Below are positions 6,178-43,126 of a DNA stretch of 64,000 nucleotides, one piece after another (position 1 is the stretch's first letter; each line of letters starts with the position of its first letter). The DNA lies in contig CANQBK010000002.1 in assembly GCA_947589485.1 (NCBI GenBank), positions 1 through 64,000 of the forward strand. Direction: 5' to 3'. Under the pieces are notes generated by a model, which saw nothing but the letters and a program-made list of their open reading frames with translations, had not been told where the DNA came from and did not search any database. The stretch comes from an uncultured Clostridia bacterium. GTDB lineage: Bacteria > Bacillota > Clostridia > Oscillospirales > Acutalibacteraceae. The position numbers and the translations under genes were made by a program.

Positions 6178-6305
6178 TCGTATTGAACAAAACGAGAAGA
6201 ATAATATTAACTTATGACGTTATGTGAACCGAATGTATAGACATCGGCAGTGTTCTGTAAACGGTTCGCAGCGGACTTTTAATTTTTGACAGGGAGGATA
6301 TATTT

Positions 6306-7550
6306 ATGACTGTAATTGAGAAAATGGGCGCAAAAGCTAAAAAAGCATCGAAAATGCTTTCGATTGCGGGAGAAAAGAAAAATGACGCTCTTAAGGCAAT
6401 CGCAAAAGCTCTTACGGACAATGCCGAAAAAATTATTGAAGCAAACAAAATTGATCTTGAAAACGGCAGACAAAATAATCTGTCCGAGTCATTGCTTGAC
6501 AGGCTAATGCTTGACGACTCAAGAATAAAAGGAATTGCACAAGGCGTACTTGAGGTTGCCGCTCTTCCGGATCCGGTCGGCACCGTAATTTCGGGCGGCA
6601 AAAGACCAAACGGACTTGAAATAACGAAAGTTCGTGTTCCGATCGGGGTAATAGGAATAATATTTGAGTCCCGTCCGAATGTTACCGCCGACGCCGCAGT
6701 CCTTTGTCTTAAAAGCGGCAATGCGGTAATTCTTAGGGGCGGCAAGGAAGCAATAAACTCAAACAAATGTATAACCGGCATTATGCAAGACGCAATTGAA
6801 TCGGCAGGCTTGGACAGGAATTGTGTCCAGCTTATAGAGGATACATCGAGGCAGTCGTCGGTCGAACTTATGTGCCTTACGGATTATCTTGACGTTCTTA
6901 TTCCCCGTGGAGGAAAAGGTCTTATCCGTGCGGTTGTTGAAAATGCCAAAGTTCCTGTAATTGAAACGGGCGCGGGAAACTGTCATGTATATGTTGACGA
7001 AAGCGCGGACATAGATATGGCGGCAAATATTATCTACAACGCAAAAACATCTCGTCCGTCGGTATGCAATGCAATCGAAACCGTACTCGTACATAAAAAT
7101 ATAGCAGAAAAAGCCCTGCCCGTTATAAAGGCAAGGCTTGACGAAAAGAATGTTCAAATAAGAGGCTGTGACGAAACAAGAAAGATTTTGGGCGACAGCG
7201 TTATCCCCGCTGACGAAAGCGACTGGGAAACCGAATACGGCGATTATATTCTTGCCGTTAAGACAGTAAAGGATATTGATGAAGCAACGGAGCATATAGC
7301 GAAATATTCAACCGGTCACAGTGAGTGTATAATAACAAAAGACTATAAAAATGCAAAAAAATTTACGTCTGTTGTGGACTCGGCTGCCGTTTACGTCAAT
7401 GCCTCAACACGTTTTACAGACGGCGGAATGTTCGGACTTGGCGCAGAAATAGGTATTTCTACCCAAAAGCTGCATACAAGGGGTCCTATGGGCTTGAATG
7501 AGCTGACGTCTGTAAAGTTTATAATTGAGGGTGACGGTCAAGTAAGGTAA
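6306..7550 (+). CDS. proA: Glutamate-5-semialdehyde dehydrogenase
   Basis: PIGVIGIIFESRPNVTADAAVLCLKSGNAVILRGGKEA; follows proB. Confidence 0.97.
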   Translation: MTVIEKMGAKAKKASKMLSIAGEKKNDALKAIAKALTDNAEKIIEANKIDLENGRQNNLSESLLDRLMLDDSRIKGIAQGVLEVAALPDPVGTVISGGKRPNGLEITKVRVPIGVIGIIFESRPNVTADAAVLCLKSGNAVILRGGKEAINSNKCITGIMQDAIESAGLDRNCVQLIEDTSRQSSVELMCLTDYLDVLIPRGGKGLIRAVVENAKVPVIETGAGNCHVYVDESADIDMAANIIYNAKTSRPSVCNAIETVLVHKNIAEKALPVIKARLDEKNVQIRGCDETRKILGDSVIPADESDWETEYGDYILAVKTVKDIDEATEHIAKYSTGHSECIITKDYKNAKKFTSVVDSAAVYVNASTRFTDGGMFGLGAEIGISTQKLHTRGPMGLNELTSVKFIIEGDGQVR

Positions 7551-11804: not shown

Positions 11805-12114
11805 TTCAAATACTCCTTACGATAAAATATTAATAATATTATTTTACCGTTAAGAACATTAGCTGTCAATGTTTTAATGCTATTCTTCTGCTGTAAATAA
11901 ACTATATCACGCGAAGAATAAAAATATTAACGAAAAAAGTGTGCAGTATTTTTCCGGTTTTGACACTTTATTTTTTATGTAAGGATAAAATATGAAAAAG
12001 TTACAAAAAAATTTAAGAATATATTGACAAAATATATAAAATGTGATACATTGTTAAAAGATTGATTAGGATTATTTTTTGGTATTTACATTAATTATTA
12101 AGGAGTGAATTATA

Positions 12115-13605
12115 TTGAGAAAAAATATGAGGCTAATAAAAGAGCTGTTATATAAAAATATAATCAAGGTGGTTTCAATATTTTTGGTATTGATACTCGT
12201 GTGTACCTATATAGGCTTAGTAATTGCAAGATATAATTATCGTAAGAATTATTTCGATATGTTTAACAAACCGGAATTTTCAAACGCTTCTTTTGTCGGT
12301 ATACCGAGTTTTGTAAGAGGAGAGTATTATTCACTTGAAGAACAAGCTCGAACAATGCAGAAAATTCCCAGGAATTATTATTTTGATAAAGCTCGGTACA
12401 GATATTTTAAAGATAATGATATATACAGCGATTTAAAAAAACTGTCGGCGGTTGATAATGTATATTATTACTATACTCTGCCACTTGGAGCTCAAGGTTT
12501 TGTTATGAGTAACGATACATATAAACTGTTGTTTCAGCGTCCACTTTCAAGCGGAAAAAACTTTGAGGATACCGAGCAGACAAGCAAGTATCCCAATGCA
12601 GTGGTTTGCGGTCCGCGCTTTGATGACGTTTCTGTGGGAGATGATATACCGATAACTGCGAAATACCTTCCCATAAGTGAAATTTCTTCGGTTTCATATT
12701 ATCAGGCGTCCGAAAATTTGGAAGATCAGTTAGTATCGAAAGAATATAAAGTTCACGTTATAGGAAAGATTTCATATCCGTACAAAACCTTAGATGAAAT
12801 GCCGGGCTATGAGTCGCAGTTGAATTATGGTCCAGATAATACATGTGACGATGCGATAATTATGTTGGACAATGATTTTACACTTAATTATTTTTCTGAT
12901 ATTTCCGTAAAATCTTATCCCGGTGAATCCATTGTTTCATATAAAAAAGGTGCGTCGGCAAAAGATATGGAGGAATTTAGAGCATATTGTGACAAAATGA
13001 CCTCAGGCTTTATTGATAAATTATATAAAAAATTCGATATAAAGAGGCGTGGAGGCTTGCCCAGAATTTATGTAAACGGTAAGGATGTAGTTGCAAGACC
13101 GTATAATAATTCTGTTTCGGAATCGTATGACTATGCCATTAATAATTTGAACAGTGAAACAAAAACAAGATTACTGCCCGTTGCGTTGGTTATTGGTGTC
13201 ATCGGTATTATAGCATCATGTTTTGCGGCGGTGCTTATGGTAAGAAAAAAGCGGAAAGATATTTGTATATATTATTTCTGCGGGTGTACGAAAAGTAAAG
13301 TATATCTGTTGTATTTATCTATAACGGCGGCATCGGTGCTTGCGGTAGGTATATTGTCATCTGTCTTTATGTATGTTTACAATAATATTTCGTTCTTTTT
13401 GAACCCGAATGAAGATGATGTAATATTGAGTTCGATATTTCATGTAAATTTCAATAAGGCTTTTGTTGATTTCCAATCAAACTGTTACATTGCGGTGTGG
13501 CTTTATTTGCTCGTTGTTTTTGTAATATTGTCGGTTTTGATTTACTTTTTGACCGCAAAAAGAAAATATATGTTAATTGATTTTTATAATAAGTTAAAAA
13601 TATAG
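12115..13605 (+). CDS. MacB/FtsX-type ABC permease paralog, family A copy 1
   Basis: N-terminal TM, ectodomain with QTSKYPNAVVCG and EYKVHVIGKIS, three C-terminal TMs with IYYFCGCTKSKVYLLYLS. Confidence 0.8.
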   Translation: MRKNMRLIKELLYKNIIKVVSIFLVLILVCTYIGLVIARYNYRKNYFDMFNKPEFSNASFVGIPSFVRGEYYSLEEQARTMQKIPRNYYFDKARYRYFKDNDIYSDLKKLSAVDNVYYYYTLPLGAQGFVMSNDTYKLLFQRPLSSGKNFEDTEQTSKYPNAVVCGPRFDDVSVGDDIPITAKYLPISEISSVSYYQASENLEDQLVSKEYKVHVIGKISYPYKTLDEMPGYESQLNYGPDNTCDDAIIMLDNDFTLNYFSDISVKSYPGESIVSYKKGASAKDMEEFRAYCDKMTSGFIDKLYKKFDIKRRGGLPRIYVNGKDVVARPYNNSVSESYDYAINNLNSETKTRLLPVALVIGVIGIIASCFAAVLMVRKKRKDICIYYFCGCTKSKVYLLYLSITAASVLAVGILSSVFMYVYNNISFFLNPNEDDVILSSIFHVNFNKAFVDFQSNCYIAVWLYLLVVFVILSVLIYFLTAKRKYMLIDFYNKLKI

Positions 13606-13665
13606 TAAGCTAATGTGAGATTATTTGTATAATAAGAATTTATTGTTTTGTTTTGCGAAAAAATA

Positions 13666-13694
13666 TTGACAAAAAATGTAAAATACAGTATACT
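13666..13694 (+). promoter_or_regulatory. Promoter of secreted protein copy 1
   Basis: TTGACA-N17-TATACT. Confidence 0.8.
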
Positions 13695-13726
13695 TTAAGT
13701 ATAAAATATTTAAGGAGGTTTTCTAT

Positions 13727-14194
13727 ATGAAAAAGTCGGTTTTAGGTAAAGTTTTGGCGTCTGTATTGATTACGGCAACAGTGGGGGTATTTTCCGCTGC
13801 TGCTGTAAATGCTGTTACTTATGATTACGGAACCATTAACGTTAATTACGGTCAAAATTATAGTTATTTAGAAAATAACGATGAGTTAAGATGTTATTTT
13901 GAAACAAAAACAAGTGATCACGGAAATCGCTCAGGTACGCATTACTACACAAATTCTAAAAATGGATTGGTAAGGGGTGCAGCGTATTCTTATATGACTT
14001 ATATTGATTATGAAGGTAAATCACGTACTCCGGACTATAACGGAAAGCGTAGCGGAATTGGTTGGGTAAAATCTGCTTGGGTTGAACCCGAATCTTCCGT
14101 TTGCAAAACTGTTAAAAAAGTTGTTCACTATGGTGAAAAGTATGATGATACATACGGTGATACATACACAATTGATAAATTTACTACAATTTAA
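13727..14194 (+). CDS. Secreted protein of unknown family, copy 1
   Basis: Signal peptide MKKSVLGKVLASVLITATVGVFSAAAVNA; body with HGNRSGTHYYTNSKNGLVRGAAYSY. Confidence 0.8.
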   Translation: MKKSVLGKVLASVLITATVGVFSAAAVNAVTYDYGTINVNYGQNYSYLENNDELRCYFETKTSDHGNRSGTHYYTNSKNGLVRGAAYSYMTYIDYEGKSRTPDYNGKRSGIGWVKSAWVEPESSVCKTVKKVVHYGEKYDDTYGDTYTIDKFTTI

Positions 14195-14311
14195 AAAATG
14201 TGTTCGGATTAATAGAATAATCGTAAATATTATGTGATGTGTTATCTTTTTGTAAGTTGGAATTGTTAAGAAGTGGGGTTTATAATAAATATAAAAAAAC
14301 ATAAAAAATTC

Positions 14312-14340
14312 TTGACAAAAAATGTAAGAAATGATATACT
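14312..14340 (+). promoter_or_regulatory. Promoter of secreted protein copy 2
   Basis: TTGACA-N17-TATACT, same flanks as copy 1. Confidence 0.8.
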
Positions 14341-14373
14341 TTAAGTATAAAATATTTAAGGAGGTTTTTTTAT

Positions 14374-14841
14374 ATGAAAAAATCAGTTTTGGGCAAGGTA
14401 GTAGCATCTGTGTTGATTACGGCAACAGTGGGAGTGTTTTCCGCTGCGGCAGTAAATGCCGGTACTTATTGTTACGGAAAAGTTAATGTTAATTACGACC
14501 AAAATTATGATTATCATTATAATAACAATGAGTTTCAATGTTACTATGAAACAAAAACAACCAGTCACGGACAACGCTCGGGTACACATTACTACACGAA
14601 TTCTAAAGATGGCTTGGTAAGAGGCGCAGCATATTCTTATATAACTTATATTGATAATAAAGGTCAAACACGGACGCCGGACTATAACGGAAAGTGCAGC
14701 GGAACCGGCTGGGTAGAATCCGATTGGGTTGAACTTACTCCTTCCGTTTGCAAAGAGGTTACGAAGGTAGTTCACTATGGTGAAAAATATGAGGATATAT
14801 ACGGTGATACATACACAATTGATAAATTTGTCACATATTAA
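14374..14841 (+). CDS. Secreted protein of unknown family, copy 2
   Basis: Near-identical signal peptide; 155 aa, same length as copy 1; colinear paralog. Confidence 0.8.
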   Translation: MKKSVLGKVVASVLITATVGVFSAAAVNAGTYCYGKVNVNYDQNYDYHYNNNEFQCYYETKTTSHGQRSGTHYYTNSKDGLVRGAAYSYITYIDNKGQTRTPDYNGKCSGTGWVESDWVELTPSVCKEVTKVVHYGEKYEDIYGDTYTIDKFVTY

Positions 14842-14896
14842 TTACACAGTGAAATCATTTTGACGTGTAAATTTAAGTTAATGTGAGGAATAGGTT

Positions 14897-16225
14897 TTGA
14901 TAATAAAAAATATTAAATTGTGTTTTCAGTTTTTCGGAAAAAACAAGTTGAAAGTCCTTGCACTGCTTATAATTGCTGTAAGTAATTGTATAATACTGTG
15001 TTCTTCCATAGGCTATTGTAATTATCGTGAATATTCGTTTAGTATGTACGACAAATCGGAAATAAGAAATGCCGATTATGTCAAAATATACTATCAATTG
15101 AATATGCAGTATCAGCTTAATTATGAAAACGAAAACGGAGGCGTTGATGTCGAAGCGGTAAATAAATCGTATTCTGAAGCGCTGGAAGATGATGTTTATC
15201 ATCAAATAGAACAGCTTCCCGCAGTTGATTCGGTTTACAGCTACAATGTTGAGGAAAACGGTGACAATCGTTATAACGATTCTCATATTTCACTGCTTTT
15301 TTCAAATAAGGATACCGCTCGCTTGTGGAATTACGAGCTTTCGGACGGGTGTTGGTTTTGGGAAACAAAACAGACAAGCAAATATCCTAATGCCGTTGTA
15401 TGCGGTTCAATTTTTCAAAACGTGGAAGTTGGCAGTGATATTGAAATACTATATTTATCAAGACCGTATAAGATTCACGTTATAGGTAAGGTTGCCGCTC
15501 CTTATCAAACGGTTGATATTACGGGTGAGTACAGCTTAGGATTGACAAACGAAAACAGGATTTTCTTTTTGGACGACGAAATGAGCTACAACACATTCGG
15601 CGCAAGAATAAAAAGAAATCCGACGGGAGCCATTGTAAAGTATAAAGATAACTCGACAAAGGAAGATATAGAAGAGTGCAGAAAATTCTATAAAAGTTAT
15701 GTATATGGCAAACTTTCCAAAGACTTGGTCGACATAGACGAATCGGAGCTTGATGAAATAGATTGTTTTACCGAGCCGGAATTTAAGTTTAACAATACGG
15801 AACATCTTATTGAATCAGCGAAAAGAGAGGCATTTTCCAGAAATACATTCTTCACAGTTATTGCCTCATTAATGTTTGTTATACTTACCGCTCTTATGGT
15901 CAAGGTCAAAATGCCGGAGTTCTGTATATATCGTTTTTGCGGCTGTACACGCATAAGGAGTTTTCTCATTTTTCTGTCGGCAATATTGTCGATAACGGTG
16001 CTGGCGGGAATTTTGGGTTCATTATTTATGTTGTTGCACACCTATATGGCTTATAACGGAATGACCGATATGAAAATGTCGGGGTATATTTACGGCGGTA
16101 ACTGTTACTTGACAATGTGGTTGACGTTGATTGCTGATGTACTGCTTGGTTCAATTATTCCTTTTATCGTTTTGTGTAAAAGAAAGATAACATTGATTAC
16201 TCTGTACAAAATAGAAAAGGAATAA
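14897..16225 (+). CDS. MacB/FtsX-type ABC permease paralog, family B copy 1 (TTG start)
   Basis: LSDGCWFWETKQTSKYPNAVVCGSIF, YKIHVIGKVAAPYQTV, IYRFCGCTRIRSFLIFLS. Confidence 0.78.
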   Translation: MIIKNIKLCFQFFGKNKLKVLALLIIAVSNCIILCSSIGYCNYREYSFSMYDKSEIRNADYVKIYYQLNMQYQLNYENENGGVDVEAVNKSYSEALEDDVYHQIEQLPAVDSVYSYNVEENGDNRYNDSHISLLFSNKDTARLWNYELSDGCWFWETKQTSKYPNAVVCGSIFQNVEVGSDIEILYLSRPYKIHVIGKVAAPYQTVDITGEYSLGLTNENRIFFLDDEMSYNTFGARIKRNPTGAIVKYKDNSTKEDIEECRKFYKSYVYGKLSKDLVDIDESELDEIDCFTEPEFKFNNTEHLIESAKREAFSRNTFFTVIASLMFVILTALMVKVKMPEFCIYRFCGCTRIRSFLIFLSAILSITVLAGILGSLFMLLHTYMAYNGMTDMKMSGYIYGGNCYLTMWLTLIADVLLGSIIPFIVLCKRKITLITLYKIEKE

Positions 16226-16249
16226 AAGTATAGAATTTAGGAATCTTTG

Positions 16250-16278
16250 TTGACAGAGCATTTAAAATATGATATACT
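16250..16278 (+). promoter_or_regulatory. Promoter of family B copy 2 permease
   Basis: TTGACA-N17-TATACT. Confidence 0.75.
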
Positions 16279-16407
16279 TTGAATACAAAATAACTATTTT
16301 GAGATTGAGGTTCATATACAAAAGTTTATTTTATATTGTATTTTATATTGAGTATGTTGTATAAATGTTTTTATGTGTAACTTTAAGTTAGATGTTAGGA
16401 GCAGATT

Positions 16408-17715
16408 TTGGTAATAAAAAATATTAAACTGTATTTTCAGTTTTTCGGAAAAAACAAGTTGAAATTTCTTGCGTTTCTTATAATTGCCGTAATCAACTGT
16501 ATAGTACAGTGTCTTTCTGTTGGATACTGCGACTATCTTGAGTATTCTCTGAGTATGTATGACAGACCCGAACTCAAATATACCGACTATGTTGATATAT
16601 ACAATGAGTTGGATAATCAGATTACGTTTCAGTTTCAGGATGATTACGGAGCAATTGATACAGAATCGTTAAAAAAAACTTATTCCGAGTCATTGAAAGA
16701 TGATGTTTATCATCAGATAGAACAGCTTCCCGTTGTTGATAAAGTTTATAGATATGACACTGCGTCATCCCGTTATGACGATTCGGATGTTTCGTTGTTT
16801 TTTTCAAATGAAGATACCGCACGCTTGTGGAATTACGAGCTTTCGGACGGGTGTTGGTTTTGGAAAACAAAACAGACAAGTAAATATCCCAATGCCGTTG
16901 TGTGTGGTTCAATTTTTAAAAATGTTAAAACAAACAGCGATATTGAGATAACATATTTAAAAAAACGGTTCAAAATTCACGTTATAGGTAAGGTTGCCGC
17001 TCCGTATAGAACGGTTGATTATTTTACGAGAAATTACATTTCGGGATTAACAAACGAAAACAGGATTTTCCTTTTAGATAACGAAATGAATTACAACACA
17101 TTCGGTGCGTCAATAAAATTGAACCCGACTGCGGCATTTGTAAAATATAAGGACAGCGCAAGCAGTGACGATATAGATGAGTGCAGGTATTTTTACAGAG
17201 ATTATATATATGACAAGCTCAATATGGAAATGCTGGATCCAAGTGATATATATCCTTGTGATAGCCATTATTATAATATGGATTGTGCGGAAATTGGTAT
17301 AAGAGAGATCAAGACTAATGCCTTTTTATTCAATTTCTTTTTTACCGCTGTTACTGCATTTATTCTTATAATATTGGCTGCACTTATGGTAAAAAGTAAA
17401 ATGCTCGATTTTTGTATATATCGTTTTTGCGGCTGTACACGCATAAGGAGCTTTCTCATTTTCCTTTCGACAATATTGTCAATAACGGTGCTGGCGGGAA
17501 TTATGGGTTCAGCATTTATGTTGGTACATAATTATATGATTTGTGACGGAATGACCGATATGAAAATGTCGCAGTATATTTACGGCGATAACTGTTACTT
17601 AACAATGTGGCTGACACTGTTTATGAATATATTGCTTTGTTCCGTTATACCGTTTATTGTTTTGTGTAGAAGAAAAATTAATTTAATTACTTTATACCGA
17701 ACCGAAAAGCAATAA
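16408..17715 (+). CDS. MacB/FtsX-type ABC permease paralog, family B copy 2 (TTG start)
   Basis: Colinear with 14897..16225; LSDGCWFWKTKQTSKYPNAVVCGSIF. Confidence 0.78.
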   Translation: MVIKNIKLYFQFFGKNKLKFLAFLIIAVINCIVQCLSVGYCDYLEYSLSMYDRPELKYTDYVDIYNELDNQITFQFQDDYGAIDTESLKKTYSESLKDDVYHQIEQLPVVDKVYRYDTASSRYDDSDVSLFFSNEDTARLWNYELSDGCWFWKTKQTSKYPNAVVCGSIFKNVKTNSDIEITYLKKRFKIHVIGKVAAPYRTVDYFTRNYISGLTNENRIFLLDNEMNYNTFGASIKLNPTAAFVKYKDSASSDDIDECRYFYRDYIYDKLNMEMLDPSDIYPCDSHYYNMDCAEIGIREIKTNAFLFNFFFTAVTAFILIILAALMVKSKMLDFCIYRFCGCTRIRSFLIFLSTILSITVLAGIMGSAFMLVHNYMICDGMTDMKMSQYIYGDNCYLTMWLTLFMNILLCSVIPFIVLCRRKINLITLYRTEKQ

Positions 17716-17777
17716 AAATTATAGCTGAAATGATAATTTCTTGTGTTTATTTGCATACTGAATAACGGTAAATATCA

Positions 17778-17821
17778 AAAAAGGCGGCGCCCAAAATTTT
17801 TTATGAGGCGTTGCCTTTTTG
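17778..17821 (+). terminator. Intrinsic terminator between family B copy 2 and family A copy 2
   Basis: AAAAAGGCggCGCC...GGCGttGCCTTTTT. Confidence 0.65.
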
Positions 17822-17851
17822 TAAGTTTGAATTGTTAAGGAGTGATTACTA

Positions 17852-19366
17852 TTGAGAAAAAATATGAGGCTAATAAAAGAGCTGTTATATAAAAATATAA
17901 TCAAAGTGGTTTCAATATTTTTGGTATTGATACTCGTGTGTACCTATATAGGCTTAGTAATTGCAAGATATAATTATCGTAAGAATTATTTCGATATGTT
18001 TAACAAACCGGAATTTTCAAACGCTTCTTTTGTCGGTATAGAGAGTTCTGTAAGCAGTGGATATGATTCACTTAGAGAGCAAGCTCGAACAATGCAGAAA
18101 ATTCCCCAGCATTATGATTTTCAGGAAGCTCAGCTCAAATATTTTAAAGATAATGATATATACAGCGATTTAAAAAAACTGTCAGCGGTTGATAATGTAT
18201 ATTATTACTATGATCTGCCGGCCAATTATGCCCGAAACCTGGAACGTACATCTTTCGTTTTTGCTATGAGTAACGATACATATAAACTGTTGTTTCAGCG
18301 TCCGCTTTCAAGCGGAAAAAACTTTGAAGATACCGAGCAGACAAGCAAGTATCCCAATGCAGTGGTTTGCGGTCCGAGCTATGATGACGTTTCTGTGGGA
18401 GATGATATACCGATAACTGCGGAATACACTCCGGTAAGCAAATTTTCTTCGAGTTCATATTATCAGGTATCCTCAAGTCAGATAATATCGAAAGAATATA
18501 AAGTTCACGTTATAGGAAAGATTTCATATCCGTACAAAACCTTAAGTCAATTGCCGCCCAATGAAACGCAGTTGTATATTTTATTTAATACATGTGACGA
18601 TGCGATAATTATGCTGGACAATGATTTTACACTTAATTATTTTTCTGATATTTCCGTAAAATCTCATCCCGGCCCTTATTCCATTGTTTCATATAAAAAG
18701 AGTGCTTCGGCAAAAGATATGGAGGAATTTAGAGCATATTGTGACAAAATTACCTCGGCTCATATTAGTGAAGTATATAAAAAATTCGATATAAAGATGC
18801 GTGGAGGCTTGCCCAGAATGTATGTAAACGGTAAGGATGTAGTTGCAAGACCGTATAATAATTCTGTTTCGGAATCGTATGACTTTGCCATTAATAATTT
18901 GAACAGTGAAACAAAAACAAGATTACTGCCCGTTGCTTTGGTTATTGGTGTCATCGGTATTATAGCATCATGTTTTGCGGCGGTGCTTATGATAAGAAAA
19001 AAGCGGAAAGATATTTGTATATATTATTTCTGTGGGTGTACGAAAAGTAAAGTATATCTGTTGTATTTATCTATAACGGCGGCATCGGTGCTTGCGGTAG
19101 GTATATTGTCATCTGTCTTTATGTATGTTTACAATAATATTTCGTTCTTTTTTAATTCGGGTGACAATAGTGAGATATTTACGATATTGGGTTCGATATT
19201 ACATGTAGATTTCAATATGTCTTTTATTGATTTCCAATCAAACTGTTATATTGCTGTGTGGCTTTATTTGCTCGTTGTTTTTGTAATATTGTCGGTTCTG
19301 ATTTACTTTTTGACCGCAAAAAGAAAATATATGTTAATTGATTTTTATAATAAGCTGAAAATATAA
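17852..19366 (+). CDS. MacB/FtsX-type ABC permease paralog, family A copy 2
   Basis: First about 60 codons nearly identical at DNA level to 12115..13605; C-terminal TM region also near-identical. Confidence 0.8.
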   Translation: MRKNMRLIKELLYKNIIKVVSIFLVLILVCTYIGLVIARYNYRKNYFDMFNKPEFSNASFVGIESSVSSGYDSLREQARTMQKIPQHYDFQEAQLKYFKDNDIYSDLKKLSAVDNVYYYYDLPANYARNLERTSFVFAMSNDTYKLLFQRPLSSGKNFEDTEQTSKYPNAVVCGPSYDDVSVGDDIPITAEYTPVSKFSSSSYYQVSSSQIISKEYKVHVIGKISYPYKTLSQLPPNETQLYILFNTCDDAIIMLDNDFTLNYFSDISVKSHPGPYSIVSYKKSASAKDMEEFRAYCDKITSAHISEVYKKFDIKMRGGLPRMYVNGKDVVARPYNNSVSESYDFAINNLNSETKTRLLPVALVIGVIGIIASCFAAVLMIRKKRKDICIYYFCGCTKSKVYLLYLSITAASVLAVGILSSVFMYVYNNISFFFNSGDNSEIFTILGSILHVDFNMSFIDFQSNCYIAVWLYLLVVFVILSVLIYFLTAKRKYMLIDFYNKLKI

Positions 19367-19384
19367 TAAATCGGGAGTGACACA

Positions 19385-20260
19385 ATGCGAAATTTTATCC
19401 TTGCAATAAATCGTGTCAAAGAGGATTTTATAAATCATAAGCCATTTATGATATTATATTTAATAGGCTCCGTAGTGTGTATTATTGTATTTATATATTC
19501 ATATACAAATATTCCGTTAATTATACAACAGTATAAAGAAGCCTCATTGATTGACAGAACGTATACTGTTGAATTTTCGGAGAAAACAGAAATTGAAAAA
19601 TCCTCTTTTGATTTTCTTGAAAATTACAATGTGGAAAGTACATATATACAATATTACGGCAATGACGAAAACAGCAAAGAAAACACGGATATTTTTTCCG
19701 ATAACACTAAAAAGAATGATATAATAGGTGTGACGGTAGTTTTAAAATCCACTCTGTCAACATATCAAAACGCCGAATTTATTGAAGAAATTTCAAAAAA
19801 GGTAGGTGGTAAATATCATATAAAATCCATAATCAGCCCCTCACCGTCAGATAATAGCGGACCTGATATAAATTTGATAGTACAAAATTTATTAAATATA
19901 TCCCTAATGTATATTATATGTTTTGGAGTTTGCGCGTGTTTATTTAAGCACATATTTGATTCAAACAGATACGAAAACACTATATATTCAATAGTGGGTT
20001 CGTCGAAAAAACGGGTTTTTTCAATAGCACTTATTGAGGCAGGGATTTTATCTTTAATAAGTATTGCAATTGCTTTTATTATCCATTTTTTGTTGTATGA
20101 TATTCTGTTTTCAAAAATATATTTGTACAGTGTACCATATAACACTTTGGATTACATTGTAATAGCAATTTTTACACTTACCCTTTCAATTGTAACGATA
20201 ATTCCGTTTTTTGTTATGTATTTTAAAAATCCTATAATAAAAACAAAACGTAAATTGTAA
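19385..20260 (+). CDS. Divergent FtsX-like permease subunit (291 aa)
   Basis: Four TM segments, small ectodomain, SIVGSSKKRVFSIALIEAG loop; directly upstream of the ATPase. Confidence 0.7.
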   Translation: MRNFILAINRVKEDFINHKPFMILYLIGSVVCIIVFIYSYTNIPLIIQQYKEASLIDRTYTVEFSEKTEIEKSSFDFLENYNVESTYIQYYGNDENSKENTDIFSDNTKKNDIIGVTVVLKSTLSTYQNAEFIEEISKKVGGKYHIKSIISPSPSDNSGPDINLIVQNLLNISLMYIICFGVCACLFKHIFDSNRYENTIYSIVGSSKKRVFSIALIEAGILSLISIAIAFIIHFLLYDILFSKIYLYSVPYNTLDYIVIAIFTLTLSIVTIIPFFVMYFKNPIIKTKRKL

Positions 20261-20277
20261 AGTAAAGGAGAACGGCT

Positions 20278-20964
20278 ATGATTGAACTGAAAAATTTAAG
20301 TAAGATTTACAAGGTAGGAAAAGGGAAGAATTTTACCGAAACACAAGCCCTTAACAATATAAACCTTACAATCGAGGACGGCGAAAGCGTTGCGATTCAG
20401 GGTAAATCGGGTGCGGGCAAATCTACTCTTTTAAACATTCTCGGTATTCTTGATTCGTATAACAGCGGCAATTATTTTATAGACGGGGAAGAGGTAAAAA
20501 AGCTCTCCGATAAAAAAGCCGCAAAACTGAGAAATGAAAAAATAGGTTTTGTTCTTCAAGATTTTTCTCTTATAGACAGTAAAAGTGTAGCTATGAATGT
20601 AATGCTTCCTCTGTTTTTTTGCGGCTGCAAACATAATGTAATGTACGAAAAAGCCGAAAAAGCACTTGAACTTGTGGACATAAAGGATCAGATAAACAAA
20701 AAAACATATCAGCTTTCGGGCGGTCAGCGTCAGCGTGTTGCCATTGCAAGAGCGATAGTAAATAATCCGTCGATAATTCTTGCCGACGAACCTACGGGCG
20801 CGCTGGACAAAGAAACTTCCAAACAAATAATGGATCTTCTTTTAAAACTGAACGAAACAGAAAAAATTACGCTTATAGTTGTAACGCACGATGACGATGT
20901 TGCGAAATGCTGTAAACGCAGGATTGAAATATCTGACGGAAACATAAAGAAAAGTGATTCCTAA
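20278..20964 (+). CDS. MacB/LolD-type ABC transporter ATP-binding protein
   Basis: GKSGAGKSTLLNILGILD, YQLSGGQRQRVAIARAI, IILADEPTGALD. Confidence 0.95.
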   Translation: MIELKNLSKIYKVGKGKNFTETQALNNINLTIEDGESVAIQGKSGAGKSTLLNILGILDSYNSGNYFIDGEEVKKLSDKKAAKLRNEKIGFVLQDFSLIDSKSVAMNVMLPLFFCGCKHNVMYEKAEKALELVDIKDQINKKTYQLSGGQRQRVAIARAIVNNPSIILADEPTGALDKETSKQIMDLLLKLNETEKITLIVVTHDDDVAKCCKRRIEISDGNIKKSDS

Positions 20965-21008: not shown

Positions 21009-21048
21009 CAAAACCGAGGCTGCGGTAAAATGCAGGCTTCGGTTTTTG
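21009..21048 (+). terminator. Intrinsic terminator after the ABC ATPase
   Basis: AAAACCGAggcTGC...GCAggcTTCGGTTTTT. Confidence 0.8.
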
Positions 21049-21679: not shown

Positions 21680-21689
21680 CAACGGTGCG

Positions 21690-22238
21690 GAGCCCGCACC
21701 GGCGATTCGCGGCGCAGTGCCTGCGCTCTCAATTCGCGGCGCCGAGCCTGCGCGGGCAATTCGCGGCGCAGTGCCTGCGCTCTCAATTCGCGTTGTCGCT
21801 CACTCCGTTCGCTCGTACTGCAAGCGATAAGTACATTCGCGCGGCGTAAGTTAATGTATCCATAGTTAAAAGTTTCGGCGCAGTGCCTGCGCTCTCAATT
21901 CGCGGCGCCGAGCCGGCGCAGGCGATTCGCGTTGTCGCTCACTCCGTTCGCTCGTACTGCAAGCGATAAGTACATTCGCGCGGCGTTAGTTTATGTTCCC
22001 ATAGTTAAAAGTTTCGGTCAAGCCTTTTCAAAGGCTTGCGGATTCCAAAGGCATAGCCTTTGGCGGGTTTTAAGGGCGGAGCCCTTAACTGCGCCGAGCC
22101 TGCGCGGGCAATTTGCGAAGTCGTTCGCTCCGCTCACTCGTATTGCAAGCGATAAGTGCGTTCGCGCGGCGTTAGTTAATGTATCCATAGTTAAAAGTTT
22201 CGGTCAAGCCTTTTCAAAGGCTTGCGGATTCCAAAGGC
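21690..22238 (+). repeat. Dispersed GC-rich mosaic hairpin repeats, cluster 1
   Basis: GGTGCGGagcCCGCACC, GCGCAGtgcCTGCGC, GCGCCGagcCGGCGC, AAGCCTTTtcAAAGGCTT, CCAAAGGCataGCCTTTGG, AAGGGCggaGCCCTT; several copies of cgctcactccgttcgctcgtactgcaagcgataagtacattcgcgcggcg. Confidence 0.9.
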
Positions 22239-22452
22239 TGCCAACATATATGACACGACAAAAGGCTCTTTCCTCAACATCATTTTAGCTGTTATATCTG
22301 AGCAAACAGTGCATTTGTACTTCCAACGAGCACAAATACGCTTTTTCGGGACACCCTAAGATCTGTAAAAAATCCTCTTTTTCGTATTTATGTCTGTTAA
22401 TTCGTTTTATTATATGATATGATAGAATTATCAATCATTGAGGGGCGATAGT

Positions 22453-24969
22453 ATGAGCGCTAAGAATCAATTTGACTGGATAGCATTTTATGAGGAGTTT
22501 GCAGATAAGTTGCTTACATATAAGGACAATCGGCATGAGCTGATTGAAAAGATAAAACGGGTTTATGAGGTTACGGAGATAAAACTGCCAAGATTGGAAC
22601 GCAATAAAAACGGCGAAAATGAGATTGTAGATATAGACCCGTTTACTACGTTTGGTCTTTTTAATAAACACATCACAGATGTAAACAGAATAAGAATAAT
22701 TACAGAAATCAAAGAATTGTTTTCAATTAACTCTGATGTACCTACCAGCTTTGACGGTATTCCGTTGTTGAACAATCAGATGGCTACATTCTATTGGTTT
22801 GGCAGCGATCGTGGTGAACACGATATTAATAATCTTTGGGATGTTTTCGCTTATGCTATAGCACTTTCAAGTTCAGATTCGCCCGAACTGAAAGATAGTT
22901 TTACACATTCATTTAATGTTTCCCTTTCTCAAAAGGGCGTAAAGTGGAATCTGTCAATGGGCTTATATTGGATTCGTCCTAACAGATTTTTGAATTTGGA
23001 TTCACGCAACAGATGGTTTATCATAAACAACGACAGCTTACCTGAGTCTATTGTTGCAAGGGTGAAGAATTTGAAATCTATGCCCGAAGCAGAAGAGTAT
23101 CTCGCTATATGTGACGAGTGCCTTTCCTATATTCATTCCGATAACTCTCCCTATGATTCACTTTCCGCTTTGTCTTTTAGTGCTTGGAATGTTTCCAAAC
23201 AGGACGACGGATATGAGAAGCTGACGGAAAGTTCATCGTCAAATTCCGGTGCTAAATTCCTGCGTTGGTTCAGACCTATTTTGCAGGCGCTCAAAGATTT
23301 AGGGGGTTCTGCGACTCCGAAAGAGGTACGAAATAAAATAATAGAAGACGAAAAGTTGACCGAAGAAGAAACAAGCACTGTTGTTGGTAAAACACAAACA
23401 CCTGAATTCAACAATGACGTTGCTTGGGCAAGCCAGCATCTTGTCAGAGGCGGTTATTTAGACAACAGCACTCGTGGTGTTTGGAAACTCACCGAAAACG
23501 GTTGGACTGTTGATATGACAGACGAATTAGCGTCAGAGATTTTCAAAGCAATCGTTAAAGTAAACCAGCAAGATAAGGAAGATAAAGGCTCAGCTCTCGC
23601 AGACGAAGATGTAAATACAAAGCGTTATTGGATTTACTCGCCCGGTAATAATGCTTCAAAGTGGAGTGAATGTACCGAGAAAGGTGTAATGCTCATCGGT
23701 TGGGGTGAAATCGGTGATTTGACACGTTTTTCTTCTAAAGCAGAAATGAAAGCTGCTATGCAGGATTCCTACGGCGACAATAAGCCTTACCGCAATGCAG
23801 CACATGCTACTTGGCAGTTTGCCTATGATATGAAACCGGGTGACATTGTTTTTGCAAAGCAAGGTATGTATAAAATAATCGGTCGTGGTGTCGTTGAGTC
23901 CGGTTATGTGTTTGATGACAACAGTGAAGATGGGTATAACAACACTCGTAAAGTAAAGTGGACAGACATCGGTGAATGGGAGCATCCCGGTCAGGCAGTT
24001 ATGAAAACGCTGACCGATATTACCCAATATACGGAATATGTTGAAAAGCTAAATGCAATGTTTGATACAGAAGATGATGACGATGATATCGACGTCGACG
24101 AAGCACCGCTGAACACCTATACAAAAGAAAACTTCCTTGCAGACGTTTATATCAGCGAAAAGCAGTATAATACTTTAGAAGGACTGCTCCGAAAGAAACT
24201 GAACGTCATTTTGCAGGGGGCTCCGGGTGTCGGTAAAACCTACGCTGCAAAACGTCTTGCCTATTCAATGATGGGTGTTAAGGATCCCGAACGTGTGCAG
24301 CTTGTTCAATTCCATCAAAGCTATTCCTATGAGGATTTTGTCGAGGGCTTCCGTCCGTCAAGCACAGGAATGAACTTTGAAATTAAGAAGGGTGTATTTT
24401 ACAACTTCTGCAAAAAAGCGTCCGATGATAAAGAAAACGAGTATTTCTTTATCATTGACGAAATCAACCGTGGTAACCTCAGTAAAATTTTCGGCGAGCT
24501 GTTTATGCTGATTGAAGCCGATAAGCGTGGCAATGATATTCAGTTGCTCTACTCTTCGGACAAGTTTTCCGTTCCGAAAAATGTTTACATTATCGGTATG
24601 ATGAACACAGCCGACCGAAGCTTGGCGATGATTGACTATGCGCTCCGCAGGCGTTTTGCGTTTTTTGAAATGAAGCCTGCGTTTGAATCTGAGGGTTTTA
24701 AGGAATATCAATACGGATTAGAAAATGATAAATTCAACAAACTGATTGACTGCGTTATCAGCCTGAATCACAAGATTGCCGACGACGATTCTCTCGGTGA
24801 GGGTTTCTGCATCGGTCACAGCTATTTCTGCGATATTGAGGAGATTAAGGAAAACACGCTGACTGATATTGTGGAGTTTGAAATTATCCCCTTGCTCAAA
24901 GAGTATTGGTTTGACGTGTCTTCCAAAGTAAAAGAATGGTCTGACCGTTTGAGGAGTGCTGTCAAGTGA
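22453..24969 (+). CDS. mcrB: McrB-like AAA+ GTPase subunit with Mrr-N-like and EVE-like domains (start may be 22453 or 22438)
   Basis: LQGAPGVGKTYAAKRLAYSMMG, FIIDEINRGNLSKIFGELFMLIE, MMNTADRSLAMIDYALRRRFAF; upstream wHTH and KRYWIYSPGNNASKWSEC...GDIVFAKQGMYKIIGRGVV. Confidence 0.9.
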   Translation: MSAKNQFDWIAFYEEFADKLLTYKDNRHELIEKIKRVYEVTEIKLPRLERNKNGENEIVDIDPFTTFGLFNKHITDVNRIRIITEIKELFSINSDVPTSFDGIPLLNNQMATFYWFGSDRGEHDINNLWDVFAYAIALSSSDSPELKDSFTHSFNVSLSQKGVKWNLSMGLYWIRPNRFLNLDSRNRWFIINNDSLPESIVARVKNLKSMPEAEEYLAICDECLSYIHSDNSPYDSLSALSFSAWNVSKQDDGYEKLTESSSSNSGAKFLRWFRPILQALKDLGGSATPKEVRNKIIEDEKLTEEETSTVVGKTQTPEFNNDVAWASQHLVRGGYLDNSTRGVWKLTENGWTVDMTDELASEIFKAIVKVNQQDKEDKGSALADEDVNTKRYWIYSPGNNASKWSECTEKGVMLIGWGEIGDLTRFSSKAEMKAAMQDSYGDNKPYRNAAHATWQFAYDMKPGDIVFAKQGMYKIIGRGVVESGYVFDDNSEDGYNNTRKVKWTDIGEWEHPGQAVMKTLTDITQYTEYVEKLNAMFDTEDDDDDIDVDEAPLNTYTKENFLADVYISEKQYNTLEGLLRKKLNVILQGAPGVGKTYAAKRLAYSMMGVKDPERVQLVQFHQSYSYEDFVEGFRPSSTGMNFEIKKGVFYNFCKKASDDKENEYFFIIDEINRGNLSKIFGELFMLIEADKRGNDIQLLYSSDKFSVPKNVYIIGMMNTADRSLAMIDYALRRRFAFFEMKPAFESEGFKEYQYGLENDKFNKLIDCVISLNHKIADDDSLGEGFCIGHSYFCDIEEIKENTLTDIVEFEIIPLLKEYWFDVSSKVKEWSDRLRSAVK

Positions 24970-25997
24970 TTCCGATTCAAAATATTTACTATATGCTCTC
25001 CTACGCATTTCAGGTGCTAAATGAGCAAGGATATAAAAGTGTGGCAACAGAGCATTTTGAGAATGTGGCGGATTTGTGTGCCGCAATCCTGATTAAAGGC
25101 TTGTCAAAGCAACTCAAGCGCGGTCTGATGAAAGACTATATCCCAAAGCGTGAACCGCTGACGGCACTGCGTGGTAAAATGGAAATTTCGGAAACACTGA
25201 AAACAAACGCCATTATCAAGCGGCAGGTTGTCTGCTCCTACGACGAGTTTTCCGAAAATGCCTATATGAACCGTATCATCAAGACGACAATGCAGCGCCT
25301 AATGGTAGCGGATGTTGGCAAGAGCCGCAAAAAGGAAATGAAAAAGCTGTTGGTGTTCTTGGGCAATGTTGAGCCGATGCCGATTTACAGTATCAACTGG
25401 AATTTGCGCTATGACCGTAACAATCAGACATACCGTATGTTGTTGTCGATTTGCTATTTGGTTTTGAAAGGCTTGTTGCAAACGCAGTCGGACGGCACTA
25501 CCAAGTTAATGGACTTCCTCGATGAACAGCGTATGCACCGCTTGTATGAGAAGTTTATTCTGGAGTATTTCCGCAAGGAACACCCGGAACTGACTGTCGG
25601 CGCACCGCAAATCCCGTGGCAGCTCGATGACGATTTCAGCGATATGCTGCCGGCTATGCAGTCGGATATTGTACTCGAAAAAGACGATAACACTCTAATT
25701 ATCGACGCAAAATATTACGCTCACACCACACAACAGCGGTTTAATAAGGCAACAGTCCACTCGGCAAACCTGTATCAAATTTTTACCTACGTCAAGAACA
25801 AGCAGGAAGAACTGAAGGACAGACAAGTAACCGTTTCGGGAATGCTGCTCTACGCCAAGACAGACGAACAAATTGTCCCCGACAACACCTATCAAATGAG
25901 CGGCAACCAAATCAGTGTGAAAACACTTGATTTGAATTGCCGGTTTGACGAGATTCGGGAACAGTTGGATAATATAGTACAAGTAAATGCAAGGTGA
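24966..25997 (+). CDS. mcrC: McrC family 5-methylcytosine restriction nuclease subunit
   Basis: IPIQNIYYMLSYAFQVL, PLTALRGKMEISE, SDIVLEKDDNTLIIDAKYY; overlaps the mcrB stop. Confidence 0.93.
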   Translation: MIPIQNIYYMLSYAFQVLNEQGYKSVATEHFENVADLCAAILIKGLSKQLKRGLMKDYIPKREPLTALRGKMEISETLKTNAIIKRQVVCSYDEFSENAYMNRIIKTTMQRLMVADVGKSRKKEMKKLLVFLGNVEPMPIYSINWNLRYDRNNQTYRMLLSICYLVLKGLLQTQSDGTTKLMDFLDEQRMHRLYEKFILEYFRKEHPELTVGAPQIPWQLDDDFSDMLPAMQSDIVLEKDDNTLIIDAKYYAHTTQQRFNKATVHSANLYQIFTYVKNKQEELKDRQVTVSGMLLYAKTDEQIVPDNTYQMSGNQISVKTLDLNCRFDEIREQLDNIVQVNAR

Positions 25998-26302: not shown

Positions 26303-26556
26303 TAGCCTTTGGCGGGTTTTTAAGGGCGGAGCCCTTAACTGCGCCGAGCCGGCGCAGGCGATTCGCGGCGCAGTGCCTGCGCTCTCAATTCGCGTTGTCG
26401 CTCACTCCGTTCGCTCGTACTGCAAGAGATAAGTATGTTCGCGCGGCGTAAGTTAATGTATCCATAGTTAAAAGTTTCGGTCAAGCCTTTTCAAAGGCTT
26501 GCGGATTCCAAAGGCAGAGCCTTTGGCGGGTTTTTAAGGGCGGAGCCCTTAACACT
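26303..26556 (+). repeat. Dispersed GC-rich mosaic hairpin repeats, cluster 2, same orientation as cluster 1
   Basis: Begins at the right half of a CCAAAGGC..GCCTTTGG hairpin and ends with aagggcggagcccttaac. Confidence 0.9.
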
Positions 26557-42765: not shown

Positions 42766-43126
42766 TCGGCGCGGCGCAGTGCCTGCGCTCTCAATTCGCG
42801 GCGCCGAGCCGGCGCGGGCAATTCGCGTTATCGCTCACTCCGTTCGCTCGTACTGCAAACGATAAGTACGTTCGCGCGGCGTTAGTGATTGTTACCATAG
42901 TTAAAAGTTTCGCTCAAGCCTTTTCAAAGGCTTGCGAATTCCAAAGGCGGAGCCTTTGGCGGGTTTTTAAGGGCGGAGCCCTTAACGCGCAGTGCCTGCG
43001 CCCTCGATTCGCGTTGTCGTTCGCTCCGCTCGCTCGTACTGCAAACGATAAGTACGTTCGCGCGCAATAAGTTTATTTATCCATAATTAAAAGTTTCGCT
43101 CAAGCCTTTGAAAAGGCTTGCTGATT
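42766..43126 (+). repeat. Dispersed GC-rich mosaic hairpin repeats, cluster 3
   Basis: Same modules as clusters 1 and 2, including CCAAAGGCggaGCCTTTGG and AAGGGCggaGCCCTT. Confidence 0.9.

Follow-up and report, generated by a model that had tools for sequence, protein, structure and literature searches.

The locus at positions 12115-20964 of the window (the whole stretch of 64,000 nucleotides that was analysed, from an uncultured Clostridia bacterium) is probably an amplified set of bacteriocin-like toxins combined with an ABC immunity system, in which large permeases (PL) would act as recognition subunits of a shared engine composed of a small permease (PS) and an ATPase. We give this reading a probability of about 0.6. 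Its basis lies in gene order, signal-peptide-like N-termini, the four-transmembrane (TM) topology, gene co-occurrence, relics of duplication, a divergence of permeases A1 and A2 restricted to the outside and the decay of secreted-protein genes in sister cassettes. From these sequence features we infer toxicity, target, pairing and immunity.

The genes are arranged in the order A1, S1, S2, B1, B2, A2, PS and ATPase, all on the + strand. The eight ORFs of a first-pass annotation were all recovered by an ORF check, at the same coordinates and in the same order and orientation. A promoter-like site (12024-12052, +, TTGACA-17-TACATT), 71% similar to the S2 promoter region over 84 columns, precedes A1 (12115-13605, +; 496 aa, TTG start), a large FtsX/MacB-like permease with 4 TM segments and an ectodomain of about 300 aa. 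The first secreted protein, S1 (13727-14194, +; 155 aa, signal peptide followed by a mature domain of about 126 aa), has a promoter-like site at 13666-13694 (+, TTGACA-17-TATACT), a near-copy of which (14312-14340, +, TTGACA-17-TATACT) stands in front of S2 (14374-14841, +; 155 aa). Two other large FtsX/MacB-like permeases, B1 (14897-16225, +; 442 aa) and B2 (16408-17715, +; 435 aa), follow. Between B2 and A2 (17852-19366, +; 504 aa), the fourth permease of this type, is a terminator- or attenuator-like hairpin with a U tract (17778-17824, +; z-score -3.4). PS (19385-20260, +; 291 aa, 4 TM segments) is a small FtsX-type permease, present in single copy and conserved in cassettes. The MacB/LolD-type ATPase (20278-20964, +; 228 aa) has intact Walker A, Walker B and signature motifs, and a terminator-like hairpin (21020-21035, +) closes the locus where a terminator had been proposed. 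The hairpin upstream of A2, the amplification relics and the second cassette of the same genome, described below, were absent from the first-pass annotation.

Just 3′ of the locus, the window carries a type IV restriction pair (22438-25997) composed of a McrB-like protein (AAA_5 and Mrr_N, 843 aa) and McrC (PF10117, 343 aa). It also has a dispersed repeat, up to about 340 bases long, at 21683-22300, 26363-26553 and 42796-43126. At least 71 matching pieces occur across the genome (40 of 219 candidates scored), a high copy number for 2.4 Mb. An ORF inside this repeat (21932-22288), repeating VKSFGQAFSKACGFQR, is probably spurious.

S1 and S2 had been described as secreted paralogs of an unrecognised family. 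They are 78% identical, and both carry a Sec-type signal peptide, MKKS...ATVGVFSAAAVNA, with an N-terminus ending VNA; similar signal peptides are found in most other S proteins, as judged by sequence. Searches with S1 and S2 against Pfam, NCBIfam and PHROGs returned no family at significant scores, which places them in no well-described family with a characterised neighbourhood. No match was obtained with S in a PDB sequence search. The AlphaFold2 model of S2 was middling (pLDDT 70.6) and all-beta; that of a more central homologue from relative G369 was confident (pLDDT 94), also all-beta, with nine strands and no helix. Fold searches with both models in the PDB, and with S among viral structures, gave only weak all-beta matches, none at E<=0.001, and the lactococcin 972 structures 2LGN and 9HKJ were not among the 50 best PDB matches of the S models. 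The S proteins are small secreted all-beta proteins of a family absent from current Pfam, NCBIfam and PHROGs models.

The permeases of the window each have four predicted TM segments and a large loop between TM1 and TM2, as judged by hydropathy. Identity is 86% between A1 and A2, about 65% between B1 and B2 and about 32% between A and B. The motifs initially noticed in both types, QTSKYPNAVVCG, K-[VI]-HVIGK and a C-terminal FCGCT, are invariant across A1, A2, B1 and B2. PS passes the Pfam FtsX (PF02687) cut-off (30.9 versus 25.5 bits). B1 (26.4 bits) and B2 (25.7 bits) are just above it in the genome-wide search only, their FtsX and MacB_PCD matches both being sub-threshold in the Pfam run that gave the PS score, and the FtsX matches of A1 and A2 stay sub-threshold. 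The ATPase matched LolD (8.7e-70), MacB (2.2e-60) and PF00005 (7.2e-34), so the MacB-type assignment made at first sight agrees with Pfam and NCBIfam models, which indicate a MacB/LolD-type NBD. A plasmid search with B1 found nothing and PADLOC gave generic ATPase matches only.

The core of the locus is a cassette of four genes, S, PL, PS and ATPase. A second copy was found in the same genome, on contig C88 (L014), with S (156 aa), PL (451 aa), PS (291 aa) and ATPase consecutive on one strand, and the cassette is also present in five further species of the genus, some copies being cut by contig ends and those of the window and G369 carrying extra S or PL genes. Among relatives, the named records are metagenome-assembled genomes, namely 'Lapin' bins of uncultured Clostridia and 'RUG' bins of uncultured Ruminococcus. 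In G021, the reading frame of one gene is disturbed close to the start, at a run of A. A neighbourhood survey of S homologs, as the first-pass annotation had proposed, detected 9 S genes in 6 of the 64 genus genomes with the S profile, and full-length PL matches above 330 bits with the PL profile in exactly the same six. All nine S genes were located directly upstream of a PL gene, or of another S followed by a PL, so that S and permeases co-occur perfectly in the genus survey. The other carriers have one PL per ATPase, which makes the four large permeases beside one ATPase as unusual as had been thought. Since, of 200 sampled genomes of the family, only that of the window and a second of its genus gave S, the S family seems restricted to a single genus within this sample. 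Class-wide S profile matches outside the genus (E 7e-4 to 0.01) were marginal, partial and mostly in unrelated long frames, and were discarded.

Relics in the window substantiate the proposed amplification. An S promoter relic between B1 and B2 (16247-16292, +; 78% over 46 nt, E 3e-6) has no S gene behind it, and the leader of an A-type gene is found 3′ of S1 (14225-14275, +; 82% over 51 nt versus 17794-17844, E 4e-10), where an A-type permease probably once stood. A promoter copy deprived of its S gene and a leader deprived of its A gene suggest that S and PL were duplicated as units and partly deleted; S+A and S+B units, some members of which were later lost, would be the simplest reading. 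In the PL tree, which has a long A branch, A1 grouped with A2 and B1 with B2, which points to local duplication for both pairs. A truncated PL located upstream of S on C88 (L014:7776-8003, - strand), in which about 77 N-terminal codons run directly into the C-terminal end, is, as judged by its sequence, a product of the same duplication and deletion process at a second site.

Differences between A1 and A2 are almost all extracellular. Outside the membrane (codons 44-322 plus the loop between TM3 and TM4), 92 nonsynonymous and 22 synonymous substitutions were counted (dN/dS 1.07), versus 2 and 8, respectively, in the TM and cytoplasmic parts (dN/dS 0.07; Fisher p 1.7e-4 for this contrast). Judging from these counts, the membrane and ATPase-coupling core is kept and the outside changes freely. 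Such a pattern would be expected of recognition subunits; relaxed constraint would look identical and may account, instead of selection, for the dN/dS near 1 of the exterior. Ordinary purifying selection acts on both the B1/B2 and the S1/S2 pair.

Sister cassettes, more distant versions found in the genus and class (L025, L082, L083, L015), encode another kind of small secreted protein ahead of two FtsX permeases and an ATPase. The one carried by the genome of the window (L015:4135-8391, G000 contig C35) directly adjoins agrB; it encodes a 169-aa secreted protein, an ATPase and two permeases of the FtsX type, is accompanied by a divergent LytTR-type regulator and a kinase, and is a possible Agr-controlled bacteriocin locus. 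A LytTR/GHKL pair precedes PS-PL-ATPase in L074 and L075. By analogy, these agrB and LytTR/GHKL contexts resemble those of quorum-controlled bacteriocin loci. In two further sister cassettes the PS, PL and ATPase genes are open and the secreted-protein gene 5′ of them is truncated (L071:2947-3060; L077 about 6210-6310), both decays being seen in draft assemblies, in which errors of sequencing or assembly may occur.

Relatives differ in what lies 3′ of gatB. The site is occupied by a complete cassette in G021 and G369 and by solitary PL genes in G354 (two), G020, G355, G009 and G005; that of G360 adjoins rpsL, and the gatB-rpsL interval is empty in G346, G356 and G014. No S, PS or ATPase adjoins the solitary PL-type permeases of the gatB/rpsL site (L079, L085, L086, L087, L111, L045). 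A recent loss of S beside gatB was considered and dropped. The four solitary PL genes included in the tree form their own well-supported clade, separate from the cassette PLs, and on this phylogenetic ground these four are an old solitary type.

In the mechanism that we propose, S1 and S2 would be exported through Sec and, once the signal peptide is removed, fold as small all-beta domains; the mature proteins would inhibit related bacteria, probably at the cell envelope. A1, A2, B1 and B2 would be recognition subunits, each joining the only PS and the only ATPase in an ABC complex of the MacB/LolCDE type (type VII). The PL ectodomain would bind S, or an S-bound target, and let go of it at the membrane surface, which would protect the producer. 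S+PL duplication and some later deletions would widen the set of toxins and of protected specificities, the PS-ATPase engine staying single. One transporter engine appears to be common to four alternative recognition subunits. That the four PLs are interchangeable and each devoted to a different S toxin of the new family, with a repertoire growing by S+PL duplication only, is a tentative extension of this scheme, and we would put the odds against it.

Several observations argue for the toxin and immunity reading at the sequence level, namely the conservation of the S-PL-PS-ATPase cassette with S and strong PL matches in the same 6 of 64 genomes, the relics, the exterior divergence of A1 and A2 and the open transporter genes next to a truncated S gene in L071 and L077. 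The variable genomic site in relatives (complete, solitary PL or empty) also counts in its favour. By analogy, so do the agrB and LytTR/GHKL genes beside the sister cassette of the same genome, typical of quorum-controlled bacteriocins, and the lactococcin 972 loci and mediterrocin, in which a Sec-exported beta protein is accompanied by a membrane protein and an ATPase (PMC4055356, PMC11796350, PMC12345188). Against it, S has no sequence match to bacteriocin families and no close fold match, a strict three-subunit model leaves the solitary PL clade unexplained, and no regulator is found inside 12115-20964.

The first-pass annotation had left the choice between export, immunity and sensing. Export, in which the ABC complex would export S, or aid its release or folding, instead of protecting the producer, is unlikely. 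MacB-type complexes can act on secreted proteins, and S and PL are strictly associated. However, with its own Sec-type signal S would need no dedicated exporter, as argued for streptococcin B and mediterrocin, the transporter genes are kept where S is truncated (L071, L077), and export would make one PL per S redundant. Immunity is favoured over export because of the first two of these points. Little probability also goes to an FtsEX-like role, in which S would be a non-toxic wall-binding or adhesin-like protein whose activity is regulated by the transporter. The PL profile does match a single PDB sequence, FtsX (8idb, E 0.0036), and S is all-beta with no evident catalytic residues, but a patchy distribution (6 of 64 genus species) and a variable genomic site fit a housekeeping role poorly, and Pfam detected no known wall-binding or hydrolase domain in S. 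Sensing, with S as a secreted signal or envelope reporter and the PL ectodomains as receptors signalling through PS-ATPase, is the least probable: type VII ABC complexes (FtsEX, Bce-type systems) can serve as mechanotransmitters and the PL ectodomains have diversified (A1/A2), but the ORF list holds no output gene within 12115-20964, be it a histidine kinase, a response regulator or another, the LytTR/GHKL pairs accompany sister cassettes, which they seem to control, and another gene stands between the C88 cassette and a sensor kinase gene near it (L014:297-2396).

The array carries putative recognition domains that vary naturally, whereas the membrane core stays constant and the ATPase single, so that permease or toxin swaps could test the role of the membrane protein and the ATPase. 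It also adds a secreted-protein family of gut Clostridia undetected by Pfam, NCBIfam and PHROGs models.

The locus would work like the lactococcin 972 loci but is no demonstrated member of them. Lactococcin-972-type proteins are Sec-exported and beta-rich, and the lactococcal one acts on lipid II; for the associated membrane protein and ATPase, immunity or transport is presumed, with no experimental proof in any locus (PMC11796350, PMC4055356). In the lactococcin 972 (lcn972-orf2-orf3, pBL1) and streptococcin B (scbABC) loci, the gene of a Sec-exported, unmodified, beta-rich small protein leads, as S does in the cassette, and those of a membrane protein whose extracellular loops are large and of a MacB-like ATPase follow, again as here (PMC4055356, PMC11796350). 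The pBL1 locus (91-aa precursor, 648-aa DUF1430 membrane protein, 207-aa ATPase) was used as comparison standard. Its Orf2 (648 aa) is fusion-like by hydropathy, with a 4-TM short-loop half and a 4-TM long-loop half, two kinds of half that resemble PS and PL, here encoded separately. Neither the PL nor the PS profile showed meaningful similarity to pBL1 Orf2, common descent beyond FtsX being without sequence support, and no DUF1430 match was found in PL or PS, the positive control Orf2 matching at 5.9e-22.

The likeness to lactococcin 972 initially suggested stood for the module and failed for S by sequence. S1 scored 11.7 bits with TIGR01653 (cut-off 32.1), S did not match PF09683, and profile comparison of S with lactococcin 972 by hhalign gave a probability of 0.1 and no alignment. 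Mature S is about 126 aa, versus 66 in lactococcin 972. The ATPase stayed below the cut-off of TIGR03608 (L_ocin_972_ABC; 229.2 versus 254.85 bits), and the LolD model scored it slightly higher, likewise below its own cut-off. Surveys with TIGR01653 found it in 0 of 194 class genomes and 0 of 299 phylum genomes sampled. At the sequence level, NCBIfam, Pfam and hhalign did not support membership of the lactococcin 972 family. We set the locus apart because S fails both the models and the profile comparison, because the one fused DUF1430 membrane protein of about 650 aa is replaced by two separate permeases, and because the confident model of the G369 homologue has no close PDB match.

Mediterrocin, an active bacteriocin of gut Clostridia with 18% identity to lactococcin 972 (PMC12345188), comes from Mediterraneibacter gnavus and shares with the present locus a Sec signal, a beta-sheet protein, a membrane protein presumed to confer immunity and an ABC ATPase, besides the gut Clostridia host (PMC12345188). 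As described (PMC12345188), it differs in its DUF1430 membrane protein and its annotation as lactococcin 972 family, neither of which applies here, and our locus is in addition amplified.

With the MacB, LolCDE and FtsEX systems (type VII ABC), the locus has in common 4-TM permeases whose TM1 and TM2 flank a large extracytoplasmic domain, an FtsX C-terminal domain and a LolD/MacB-like ATPase. Unlike them, it combines two permease sizes per cassette with a secreted partner gene, and offers four alternative large permeases to one ATPase.
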